From positions 1 through 30,129 of the IMG/VR virus record IMGVR_UViG_3300000956_000066: 30,129 bases of DNA; one strand, 5' to 3'. This DNA is from a virus. The position numbers were made by a program, and so were the translations under genes. Shown piece by piece: positions 196 through 30,129 of this stretch; within the stretch, counting starts at the first letter, position 1; every line of letters starts with the position of its first letter. A model generated the notes under the pieces. The model searched no databases. It was not told the DNA's origin and saw only the letters and a list, made by a program, of their open reading frames with translations.

Positions 196-930
196 CTAAA
201 GGAGAACTGAATACCAGAAGACTTTTCCGATCACGATGATGTCTTTCTGAAGCATGTCGTCTGCGCTGTATTCCTCATCGGGATGTTCGTCCCGGTTGTA
301 GCTTCGCATTCTGATGCCGCCACCTGGCGCCCGATACAGAGTTTTAACTCTGAGCTGACCCCCATGGTTGAGCGCGTACATTTTGCCGTCTGTAATTGCG
401 GTGCAGCCTTGATCTACACCCACCGTGCTTCCGTGGGGTAGTACCGGCTCCATGCTGTTTCCACTGACCGTCACACATACAGCCTCGCTTGGCTGCACAT
501 TCTGACGTCGGAGAGTCATCTTCCCGAAGCGCAGCTTTTGTTTATGTGATGGCTCTACCACTGTCTTGCCGCTACCGGCTGACAGCTCAACTTCCTTGAG
601 GAATGGCACGTACACCTCATCTTCGTCCAGCGGTGTCTCATCGTCCCAAACCGAAAAAGGGCCCAGGTATTCAGCGTTACTAACGACTTCCGAGGGCTTC
701 ATACCTTCTCGGTCGAGTTGGTAACGCTCCAGGCCGAGCTTCGCTTCGATATCTCGTGCGAAGTCTTCCCCGATGTTTTTACTACCAGCTGAGGAGGGCG
801 CTGTCGAGAGGCAGCGCGAGATGTAATTGGCGCTCCGACCTAAAGCATCGGCCAATCTGGCCTGCTTTCCATCAAAACGCTGCTTCATAAGTGTCCGCAA
901 ATTGTCGCGGCGAATATCTGAAATTTCCAT
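196..930 (-). CDS. CI/LexA-type phage repressor (XRE domain + S24 peptidase)
   Basis: Prophage master repressor that keeps lysogeny by binding operators on both sides of its own gene. The 244-residue product has an N-terminal helix-turn-helix region (about 1-70) and a C-terminal LexA-like S24 peptidase domain (about 105-244). The usual self-cleavage site is visible as Ala118-Gly119. The catalytic pair is Ser159 (in the SGNSM motif) and Lys196 (in RVKTLY). The protein should therefore be inactivated by RecA-stimulated autocleavage after DNA damage. The start is uncertain. The frame stays open to 1044, but that would translate straight through the operators. ATG at 945 has an AGGA directly against it, which is too close to act as a ribosome site. 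ATG at 930 begins MEISDIRR, typical of this family, so I chose it. The gene is divergent from the Cro-like gene and has its own terminator. Confidence 0.93.
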   Translation of the reverse strand: MEISDIRRDNLRTLMKQRFDGKQARLADALGRSANYISRCLSTAPSSAGSKNIGEDFARDIEAKLGLERYQLDREGMKPSEVVSNAEYLGPFSVWDDETPLDEDEVYVPFLKEVELSAGSGKTVVEPSHKQKLRFGKMTLRRQNVQPSEAVCVTVSGNSMEPVLPHGSTVGVDQGCTAITDGKMYALNHGGQLRVKTLYRAPGGGIRMRSYNRDEHPDEEYSADDMLQKDIIVIGKVFWYSVLL

Positions 931-950
931 CCGCAAATCATCCATTCCTG

Positions 951-1003
951 TTACCAAAAGGTAAATCACCTGCGGGTATTGCTTTGAGATTACCTGCGGG
1001 TAA
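951..1003. promoter_or_regulatory. Right operator array (OR-like), three TTACC-N4-GGTAA dyads
   Basis: Three 14-bp dyads lie between the divergent repressor and Cro-like genes: 951-964 (TTACCAAAAGGTAA, perfect arms), 966-979 (TCACCTGCGGGTAT, two changes) and 990-1003 (TTACCTGCGGGTAA, perfect arms). Centre-to-centre spacing is 15 and 24 bp. The third lies inside the rightward promoter spacer and the second abuts its -35 box, so occupancy should block rightward transcription. The first is closest to the repressor start and could serve autoregulation, as OR3 does in lambda. Confidence 0.78.
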
Positions 1004-1007
1004 TAAT
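979..1007 (+). promoter_or_regulatory. Early rightward promoter (PR-like)
   Basis: A -35 TTGCTT (979-984), 17-base spacer and -10 AATAAT (1002-1007, 5 of 6) place a start near 1014, just before the strong ribosome site AAGGAGG at 1021-1027. The operator at 990-1003 fills most of the spacer. The -35 is only a moderate match, so the assignment leans on position and operator overlap. Confidence 0.6.
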
Positions 1008-1033
1008 CCAAGGCATCTAAAAGGAGGCCCGAT

Positions 1034-1264
1034 ATGCGGACCAAAAATCCTCAACTTCTTGAGTGGCTCAAAACAGCAAGCGATGCCGCGGTTATCAGCA
1101 CCGGCACCAGCCGTGCGTATCTGCGGCTGATCGCTTACGGCCACAAGACTGCTTCCGCCGAAATTGCAGCTCGTACCGAGTCAGCGACCGGAGGAGCGGT
1201 GACGCGCAAAGCGCTGAGGCCTGATGACTGGAAGCAGATCTGGCCAGAACTCGCAGTGGCGTGA
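1034..1264 (+). CDS. Cro/YdaS-like transcriptional regulator
   Basis: A 76-residue DNA-binding protein, first gene of the rightward early operon and divergent from the repressor. The sequence has the compact helical layout of YdaS/Cro-type regulators: an N-terminal helical segment, a helix-turn-helix around SAEIAARTESATGG (about residues 41-54), and a C-terminal RKALRPDDWKQIWPEL segment common in this family. The ATG at 1034 follows a near-perfect Shine-Dalgarno AAGGAGG with 6 bases between. By position it should compete with the repressor for the operators at 951-1003 and favour lytic growth. That role is inferred. Confidence 0.82.
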   Translation: MRTKNPQLLEWLKTASDAAVISTGTSRAYLRLIAYGHKTASAEIAARTESATGGAVTRKALRPDDWKQIWPELAVA

Positions 1265-28582: not shown

Positions 28583-29008
28583 ATGACTGCAACCGAAAAA
28601 GACCGGGACATCCTCGCGCGCACTTTGTGGGGTGAAGCCCGTGGTGAAAGCCTGGCCGGTCAGATCGCCGTAGCCTGGACGATACGCAACCGTGTGAACG
28701 ACGGCAAAGCAAAGTCGTGGTGGGGGGAGGGCTATGCTGGCGTGTGCCAGAAGCCGTACCAGTTCAGCTGCTGGAACAAGAACGATCCGAACTTCCCATT
28801 CCTGAGTGGTGCGAGACAGATCCCGTTCCGTGAGCTTGCTCAAGCGCGGATCGCTGCTGACCAGGTGATTGACGGCAAGGTAGAAGATCCCACCGGCGGC
28901 GCCACTCACTACTACGCGACGACCATGCCGAAGCCCCCGACCTGGACGAAGGGCGCTAAGCAGACGCTGAAGCTTGGGCATCACGTTTTCTTCAAGGACG
29001 TACCGTGA
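28583..29008 (+). CDS. Endolysin, SleB-type cell wall hydrolase
   Basis: A 141-residue peptidoglycan hydrolase of the SleB/Hydrolase_2 family. It begins TEKDRDILARTLWGEARGES, with the conserved catalytic Glu in LWGEARGE (about residue 18), and continues AVAWTIRNRVNDG, QKPYQFSCWN and the GGATHYYA segment. No signal peptide is present, so it needs the holin to reach the wall. A GGAG site precedes ATG 28583 by 7 bases. It is followed immediately by Rz. Confidence 0.9.
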   Translation: MTATEKDRDILARTLWGEARGESLAGQIAVAWTIRNRVNDGKAKSWWGEGYAGVCQKPYQFSCWNKNDPNFPFLSGARQIPFRELAQARIAADQVIDGKVEDPTGGATHYYATTMPKPPTWTKGAKQTLKLGHHVFFKDVP

Positions 29009-29526
29009 TGACGCCGGCGCAAAAGCTGATGGCTCTTCTGGTGCTGGTTGCGGTGTTGATGGCCGGCAGCGCCGCGGGCACATGGAAGGTTCAGGACTGG
29101 CGCTATGGAAAGCGGCTCGCCGAGCAAGAAGGTCTGCACAAAGACGATCTTGCCATGATCAGCAGCGCGGCTGCGGCCCAAGTTCGCGCCGATCAGGTCA
29201 AACGCCTGGCGCTCGAGCAGCGCCTGTCTGCCAGCGATCAAACCCACCACAAGGAACTGAGCGATGCCCAAACCAACCAGGCTCGTCTGCGCGATCGCCT
29301 TGCCACTTCTGATTTGCGGCTGTCAGTCCTACTCGAAGCCACGGATTCAACCGGTGGCTGTTCAGTGCCAGCCGGTACCGAAGCCGTCGGCGTGGTTCAT
29401 GGAGGAACGCGCGCCCGACTTGACCCAGCGCATGCTCAACGAATTGTCGCCATTACCGATGCCGGCGATCAAGGACTGATTGCGCTCAAGGCTTGTCAGG
29501 CTTATGTCAGAGAGGTGAATCACTGA
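29008..29526 (+). CDS. Rz-like inner-membrane spanin
   Basis: A 172-residue i-spanin: one N-terminal membrane segment (about 5-24, MALLVLVAVLMAGSAAG) followed by a long periplasmic coiled coil (about 30-115). It connects inner and outer membranes with Rz1 and disrupts the outer membrane in the last step of lysis. The ATG at 29008 follows AAGGA; GTG 29005 would add one residue. The Rz1 gene is nested in the +1 frame. The 3' end overlaps a convergent gene by 20 bases. Confidence 0.85.
   Translation: MTPAQKLMALLVLVAVLMAGSAAGTWKVQDWRYGKRLAEQEGLHKDDLAMISSAAAAQVRADQVKRLALEQRLSASDQTHHKELSDAQTNQARLRDRLATSDLRLSVLLEATDSTGGCSVPAGTEAVGVVHGGTRARLDPAHAQRIVAITDAGDQGLIALKACQAYVREVNH
29264..29479 (+). CDS. 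Rz1-like outer-membrane spanin lipoprotein, nested in Rz
   Basis: A 71-residue lipoprotein, fully inside the Rz gene in a different frame. The signal has basic PTR, hydrophobic LVCAIALPLLI and a lipobox ICGC with lipidation at Cys20. The mature part is Pro-rich (PRIQPVAVQCQPVPKPSAWFMEE), as expected for Rz1. An AAGGA site (29250-29254) lies upstream of ATG 29264. Nested Rz/Rz1 is a well-known arrangement, which raises confidence in both genes. Confidence 0.85.
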   Translation: MPKPTRLVCAIALPLLICGCQSYSKPRIQPVAVQCQPVPKPSAWFMEERAPDLTQRMLNELSPLPMPAIKD

Positions 29527-29839
29527 TCGGCTTGCCTGCCTGCAACTCACGAATGATCCTCTCCTTTTGGGATAGAACGAGAGTGAGGCTTTGGATCTCG
29601 GCTAGTTGCACGGTTGTTTCGGCTTCGAGGTTCGCCATCCAGATCCGTTTCTTTTCAAGGTCGGCGGCGAGTTGGTCGTTCATCTGGATCAGCCCCGTGA
29701 TGTTTTCCTTTGCCGCGCGCAGTTCCCGCTTCAGCGCCTGGACGTCTTCCTCAAGCATGCTGGCGTAATGCTGGACGGTCTCCAGCCTGGATGGCGAGCC
29801 GAGCCAATCGCTGGTGTCTTCGATTTCGTACGGGTCCAC
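29507..29839 (-). CDS. LexA-box-preceded coiled-coil protein of unknown function
   Basis: A 110-residue acidic coiled-coil protein. After a short N-terminal piece (DPYEIEDTSDWLGSPSRL), residues about 20-105 form one long heptad pattern (SMLEEDVQALKRELRAAKENI...LAADLEKKRIWMANLEAETT...IIRELQAG). The start GTG 29839 has AAGGCG seven bases upstream. A LexA-box-like dyad lies at 29859-29874, 20 bases before the start. The gene is convergent with Rz and overlaps it by 20 bases. I do not recognise a family; by analogy with LexA-controlled antirepressors such as 186 Tum it could link SOS to induction, but this is a guess. Confidence 0.7.
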   Translation of the reverse strand: MDPYEIEDTSDWLGSPSRLETVQHYASMLEEDVQALKRELRAAKENITGLIQMNDQLAADLEKKRIWMANLEAETTVQLAEIQSLTLVLSQKERIIRELQAGKPISDSPL

Positions 29840-29858
29840 GGTGACGCCTTATCAAATA

Positions 29859-29874
29859 CTGTCTGGATATACAG
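29859..29874. promoter_or_regulatory. LexA (SOS) box
   Basis: CTGTCTGGATATACAG has the perfect CTGT-N8-ACAG arms of the gammaproteobacterial LexA box and an AT-rich right half. It lies directly upstream of the - strand gene at 29507-29839, at a normal promoter distance. Host LexA binding is inferred. Confidence 0.72.
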
Positions 29875-30129
29875 TAATCGAGGCGCGACGATTGAGCGAG
29901 GGTAGGGCGACGAATAGTAGATTTTCGGGGTGGTGATCGGTCGGCAGGACGCCGGAGGTGGGATTTTTCTGTGGATATTTCTTCCCCAAAACGCAACCGT
30001 TTGGACCAATGTTTATTGGGTTCAGAAGAGTGGTAAAAGTTGGTGTTTTTGGTGGCTGATTTCTGACTCAAGGCCTTGATTTAAAAGGCCTTGTGTCGAT
30101 CTTATGCGGCATCCCAGGCTTTGATGCCG
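29875..30129. other. Noncoding right end with inverted repeat
   Basis: No gene with protein-like composition is visible on either strand. AAGGCCTT (30070-30077) and AAGGCCTT (30085-30092), itself palindromic, form an inverted repeat with 7 bases between; this could be a bidirectional terminator or a site near an attachment end. No matching copy occurs at the left end of the window, so an att site cannot be claimed. Confidence 0.4.

Follow-up and report, generated by a model that had tools for sequence, protein, structure and literature searches.

The stretch of DNA analysed here (the window, 30,129 nucleotides) carries near its right end a small minus-strand gene (29507-29839, GTG start, 110 amino acids), delimited from the open reading frame list, alignments, an AlphaFold2 model and codon substitutions; its product is a predicted coiled coil, and its expression appears to be under SOS control. 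The gene sits at the right end of a prophage and points back toward the lysis genes. The last gene of the lysis cassette, a plus-strand Rz-like inner spanin (PF03245, phrog_2466; 29005-29526) with Rz1 nested inside it (29264-29479), converges on it, and the two genes overlap by 20 bases (29507-29526), as a first-pass annotation of the same sequence had described. Between the tail fibre and lysis genes lies an acyltransferase gene (PF01757, 27098-28516), a candidate O-antigen-modifying conversion gene.

Upstream of the coiled-coil gene is a LexA box core, CTGTCTGGATATACAG (29859-29874; CTGTATATCCAGACAG on the minus strand), 19 bases from the start of the open reading frame. It is the single exact CTGT-N8-ACAG site in the window, and the earlier report of such a box ahead of a minus-strand gene is confirmed, with the box conserved together with the gene. 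This box is also the one place in the window that fits the Pseudomonas LexA consensus CTGKMTNNWHDHHCAG (Cirz 2006, as quoted in PMC8544851), against 0.12 expected. The core lies within an extended operator, TACTGT-N8-ACAGTA (29857-29876, minus strand), for which 0.00 occurrences are expected in the window and which is absent from 100 shuffles. Adjoining the operator is a CCTCGAT block (29877-29883, minus strand) that is kept across the family; because no match to the sigma-70 consensus was found, this block is put forward only as a probable promoter element. A Shine-Dalgarno-like AAGG (29847-29850, minus strand) stands 7 bases 5' of the GTG start in the window sequence, and relatives commonly have AAGGC. 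Further upstream, TTCGTCGCCCTACCCTCGC (29885-29920, minus strand) forms a second block that many relatives keep; its distance from the LexA box is about 20-40 bases. GAACCCAATAAACATTGGTCCAAACGGTTGCGTTTTGGGG, at about 29980-30025 (minus strand), contains an inverted repeat (CCAAT-AAAC-ATTGG), is shared with small differences by three relatives (L009, L038, L061) and is possibly the neighbourhood of an attachment site.

The survey of relatives for the box-gene pair that the first-pass annotation had proposed was carried out. A scan of viral contigs yielded 106 relatives, of which 80 were kept, and a scan of 84,980 genome species, made with narrow seed patterns, yielded 74 loci; the box census covers the 157 relatives with at least 60 bases of readable upstream DNA. 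A LexA box, with the extended operator conserved around it, is present in 154 of these (143 exact, 11 with one mismatch), and in 153 of the 154 it lies at -31 to -37 from the start codon. Exact boxes at -37 to -31 number 142, whereas the frequency of these sites in the rest of the surrounding 400 bases predicts 0.08. Conservation at this level, this excess and the zero expectation for the long palindrome together rule out a chance box. All three boxless members have damaged genes: L141 ends early, while L154 and L158 have lost the normal start. The strict published consensus is matched by only 48 of 153 family boxes, and the conserved upstream DNA of the family reads CCTCGATTACTGTATAtnCAaACAGTAt. 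Relatives at 26-38% identity still have this DNA, which is therefore under selection. Codon substitutions in the coiled-coil frame (dN 0.10-0.24 against dS 0.6-4.2) indicate a real protein gene under purifying selection. The coiled-coil gene and its LexA box are thus confirmed, at the level of sequence comparison, as a real and conserved pair.

The operator is also of the host type. In a Pseudomonas carrier genome (G001), the host lexA gene has the box CTGTATAAAAAGACAG 26 bases before its start, and a YebG-like gene and a PA0069-like radical-SAM gene (both named from translations) carry the same box type; by sequence, therefore, the phage operator is a host-type LexA site, placed in the promoter region as in these host genes. 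The exact CTGT-N8-ACAG pattern alone is not LexA-specific: the carrier genome has 78 such sites where the reversed pattern occurs 39 times, and a levansucrase-like gene follows one of the 78. LexA regulation of the coiled-coil gene, predicted from operator and context, is strongly supported at the sequence level. With a conserved host-type operator over its promoter region, the gene should stay off in an undamaged lysogen and be expressed once LexA has been inactivated through RecA.

The gene belongs to the prophage, as the first-pass annotation had assumed. Family members lie inside the phages VW-6S, PseuP_222, PseuP_224 and SC_8_H2H8; an integrase is found beyond the coiled-coil gene in L004, L012, L137 and L149, and host-like genes (from translations) within about 1 kb beyond it in L087 and L095. 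A host gene that merely adjoins the prophage is rejected because the relatives lie within phage genomes. All 74 loci from the genome-species scan are in Pseudomonas. Among 400 sampled Pseudomonas genomes, 131 match at E<=1e-3 and 78 at E<=1e-20, the latter being the stricter count, since a coiled-coil profile may give false hits at weak scores. Outside Pseudomonas, 368 gammaproteobacterial genomes gave no match at 1e-12, and a search for a plasmid copy found none. Two family members carry annotations that look unfounded, namely 'defense against restriction protein A' (MF975720.1, 13835-14194) and 'minor tail protein' (OP626800.1, 45344-45682).

The predicted protein is essentially a rod. AlphaFold2, given an alignment without the phage-record rows, models one continuous helix over residues 18-102 (pLDDT 89.8) and no firm structure for residues 1-17, the conserved N-terminus being of low confidence in the model. 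Hydrophobic residues recur every 3.5 positions (p 0.017 for the window protein, with the family peak also at 3.5); the long continuous helix and heptad repeat of a canonical coiled coil are thus both present. The protein-binding role that the first-pass annotation had read from the long coiled coil is likely, and the rod may be a parallel dimer. Conservation is very uneven along it. A fixed head (residues 1-55) comprises the acidic MDPYEIEDTSDWLG motif and the first half of the helix, with the consensus MDPYEIEDTSDWLGxPTxLET..., invariant W12 and P16, and a net charge of about -4 over the first 17 residues. Beyond residue 55 there are at least five unrelated-looking coiled-coil tails. Mean identity is 59% in the head against 23% in the tail; of the 313 pairs with heads at least 85% identical, 121 have tails below 40%, and L081 and L084 combine 98% identical heads with 12% identical tails. 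The plain reading is that heads and tails have recombined at their border, or that the tail has diversified strongly. In L155 the family box and head are fused in frame, within a 252-amino-acid coiled-coil ORF, to sequence resembling the C-terminal part of a RecE-like exonuclease (phrog_7655, E 1.8e-37), either a chimera by recombination or a real fusion.

Comparison with known families gave no above-cut-off match in Pfam, PHROGs, NCBIfam or PADLOC, where only sub-threshold coiled-coil matches appeared, and none in PDB by sequence or by fold, the fold query being a single helix. Weak matches to CENP-F, SMC, YabA, LmuB and a RecE-like exonuclease were judged to be coiled-coil noise. The literature search found no published description of the gene, the P. 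putida LexA regulon (PMC2168638) falling outside its scope. The family is thus undescribed, and its kind, the LexA-controlled prophage accessory gene, is already known.

The commonest gene behind the coiled-coil gene encodes an SRAP protein (YedK/HMCES), a type whose role elsewhere is to protect single-stranded DNA at abasic sites. It lies directly downstream in 54 related loci, with an intact family domain (PF02586, E 7e-47), and the gap between the two genes is 2 bases in one large group; a shared transcript is plausible in many relatives. After removal of near-duplicates, SRAP is present in 32 of 110 members, about a third. In the remaining members the coiled-coil gene stands alone, as it does in the window, where no SRAP follows the box, or is followed by other cargo; L075 has a possible degenerate SRAP below the cut-off. 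SRAP genes in prophages were noted in 2013 (PMC3765255). SRAP genes known from phages and SOS operons are among the nearest parallels, SRAP here standing behind the LexA box of the coiled-coil gene. A coiled-coil companion is not mentioned in the main text of the 2013 report (PMC3765255), and the window copy lacks SRAP. The new element is SRAP as the next gene behind a LexA-boxed coiled-coil gene in about one-third of relatives.

A comparable arrangement occurs in P. aeruginosa phages. F116 (L249, 1605-3149), Presto (L251) and Fyn8 (L252) carry a box, a gene for a 171-amino-acid phrog_8717 protein and SRAP between the integrase and the lysis genes; the box reads CTGTATATTCATACAG, or CTGGATATTCATACAG in Fyn8. 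The slot, the LexA box type and the second position of SRAP are those of the coiled-coil relatives, but the leader, the phrog_8717 protein, is unrelated to the coiled-coil protein. No published description of this arrangement as an SOS module was found. The right end of these prophages is therefore a regular site of LexA-driven accessory genes, and outside P. aeruginosa phages the coiled-coil gene is a usual leader of the module: as judged from gene order, it is the sole module gene in the window and comes first in about a third of relatives. A small phrog_5560 protein (motif STNGFVL..YAQSWWC) is another tenant of the slot, lying directly after the coiled-coil gene in L159 and after SRAP in pAN (L253, 3205-3519).

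As to what the protein does, the first-pass annotation proposed an antirepressor, an SOS-timed lysis regulator or a host modulator. Coliphage 186 Tum is a LexA-controlled small antirepressor encoded outside the immunity region. On the antirepressor model, release from LexA would yield a protein that captures the prophage's repressor and so opens the early promoters, providing a second SOS induction route. Like Salmonella GfoA, GftA and GfhA, the window gene encodes a small phage protein with a LexA box, outside the immunity region of a prophage, which is the anatomy of the Gifsy antirepressors (PMC3121763). Those antirepressors act on small, uncleaved repressors (PMC3121763). The window, in contrast, carries an S24-type repressor (196-1044, minus strand; motifs LSAGSG, GNSM and LRVK) with an A-G cleavage site and a Ser/Lys dyad, the anatomy of the self-cleaving repressor that had already been attributed to this prophage. 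An S24 repressor is found in 27 of 30 records of at least 35 kb that carry the coiled-coil gene; all those examined keep the S24 domain, and motif search shows the Ser/Lys dyad in 17, of which about half also carry a cleavage site of A-G or C-G type. The window also already has a Rha/ANT-type (KilAC) antirepressor-like gene in its early region (1417-2118), beside a YdaS-like Cro gene (1034-1264). A protein that binds its own repressor would be expected to change with it, and no such co-change is seen. In L066, L067 and L068 the coiled-coil heads are 100% and the tails 93-94% identical with repressors only 14-27% identical, whereas L007, L060 and L065 have repressors 90-92% identical and differing tails. 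Tail and repressor do show a weak residual correlation (Mantel r 0.22, p 0.002), far below the 0.58 that links head and tail; it would favour an antirepressor, and shared phage ancestry would account for it. No sequence relation to Tum, GfoA, GftA or GfhA was found. An antirepressor is accordingly disfavoured and quite unlikely. The Gifsy DinI-like genes are likewise phage-borne and LexA-controlled, but they have no sequence match to the coiled-coil gene and their box lies near replication genes (PMC3121763).

A second candidate role is a brake on lysis, exerted either by an SOS-timed antisense transcript that reads through Rz and endolysin or by binding of the protein to the spanin. The convergent overlap with Rz and a search that found no terminator between the two genes fit such a role. 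Not every relative has the overlap, however: in many, SRAP or another gene lies between, and the lysis genes on the opposing side vary in type. Purifying selection, moreover, acts on the protein. A regulator tied to Rz is highly improbable, and this suggestion of the first-pass annotation is not supported. A dedicated SRAP partner, bringing SRAP to damaged forks or holding it, with SRAP-less copies using an SRAP of the host or of another prophage, would explain why, in 54 loci, the two genes lie side by side at close spacing behind a single box, and why the SRAP domain is intact. However, most non-redundant members lack SRAP, and SRAP occurs with quite different leaders in F116, Presto and Fyn8 and without a leader in pAN, which makes this role rather unlikely. 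An inhibitor of host growth or division, made only after damage and holding the cell for the phage, would be a narrower form of the best explanation below. Prophage proteins such as DicB and KilR inhibit host growth or division like SulA, and tight LexA control would suit a costly protein, and the small size, coiled coil and conserved acidic head of the presumed adaptor would suit a binding inhibitor; but there is no sequence link to any such protein and nothing in the neighbourhood points to division, and an inhibitor of this kind is unlikely.

Of the three earlier suggestions, the host modulator is the best, with a molecular target that is proposed here rather than read from a match: no target-naming match was obtained by sequence or fold. 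The coiled-coil protein probably acts on the host damage response rather than waking its own prophage. Several lines of evidence point this way, namely the box-gene pairing, the same box at host lexA, SRAP in 54 loci, the F116-type slot, the contrast of head and tail, the independence from the repressor and the single long helix. The fuller explanation, in which the gene leads a right-end SOS accessory module and acts on a conserved host damage-response target, is held at about even confidence. In this mechanism, LexA cleavage would open the promoter and the rod would be made during SOS whether or not the prophage induces. The protein might serve, as a parallel coiled-coil dimer, as an adaptor whose acidic, tryptophan-containing head binds a target that these Pseudomonas hosts all share, in all likelihood one of their damage-response proteins (replication fork, RecA/LexA or cell-division machinery), while the exchangeable tail would bind a second partner that differs between phages. 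It would act while the SOS response lasts, ahead of prophage induction or alongside it, and would not inactivate its own repressor. The pathway is likely to be one that protects or processes single-stranded DNA after damage, or one that holds back host replication or division in the meantime; a pathway shared with SRAP is only suggested, because SRAP is missing from most members.

Few prophage genes are known to be LexA-controlled, and most of these have been explained as antirepressors or as modulators of RecA or polymerase. Here an undescribed family occurs in about one-fifth to one-third of sampled Pseudomonas genomes, keeps its box almost without exception even where protein identity falls to about 30%, and is often accompanied by a gene for abasic-site repair. 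If the protein acts on the host, many soil and plant Pseudomonas lysogens have a phage-edited SOS response, with consequences for mutation, for how cells survive DNA damage and for how prophages compete. A broader and more tentative proposal is that these proteins are widespread prophage SOS adaptors in Pseudomonas: the head might dock on a host damage-response protein, the tails might recruit phage-specific partners, and the host response might be reshaped independently of the induction switch, with SRAP as the usual companion. Another phage gene possibly under LexA control was noted in TC7 (L250), where a CTGTACGCATATACAG box (49-64) lies 11 bases before a gene for a 105-amino-acid protein (76-393, phrog_7427), upstream of the integrase.
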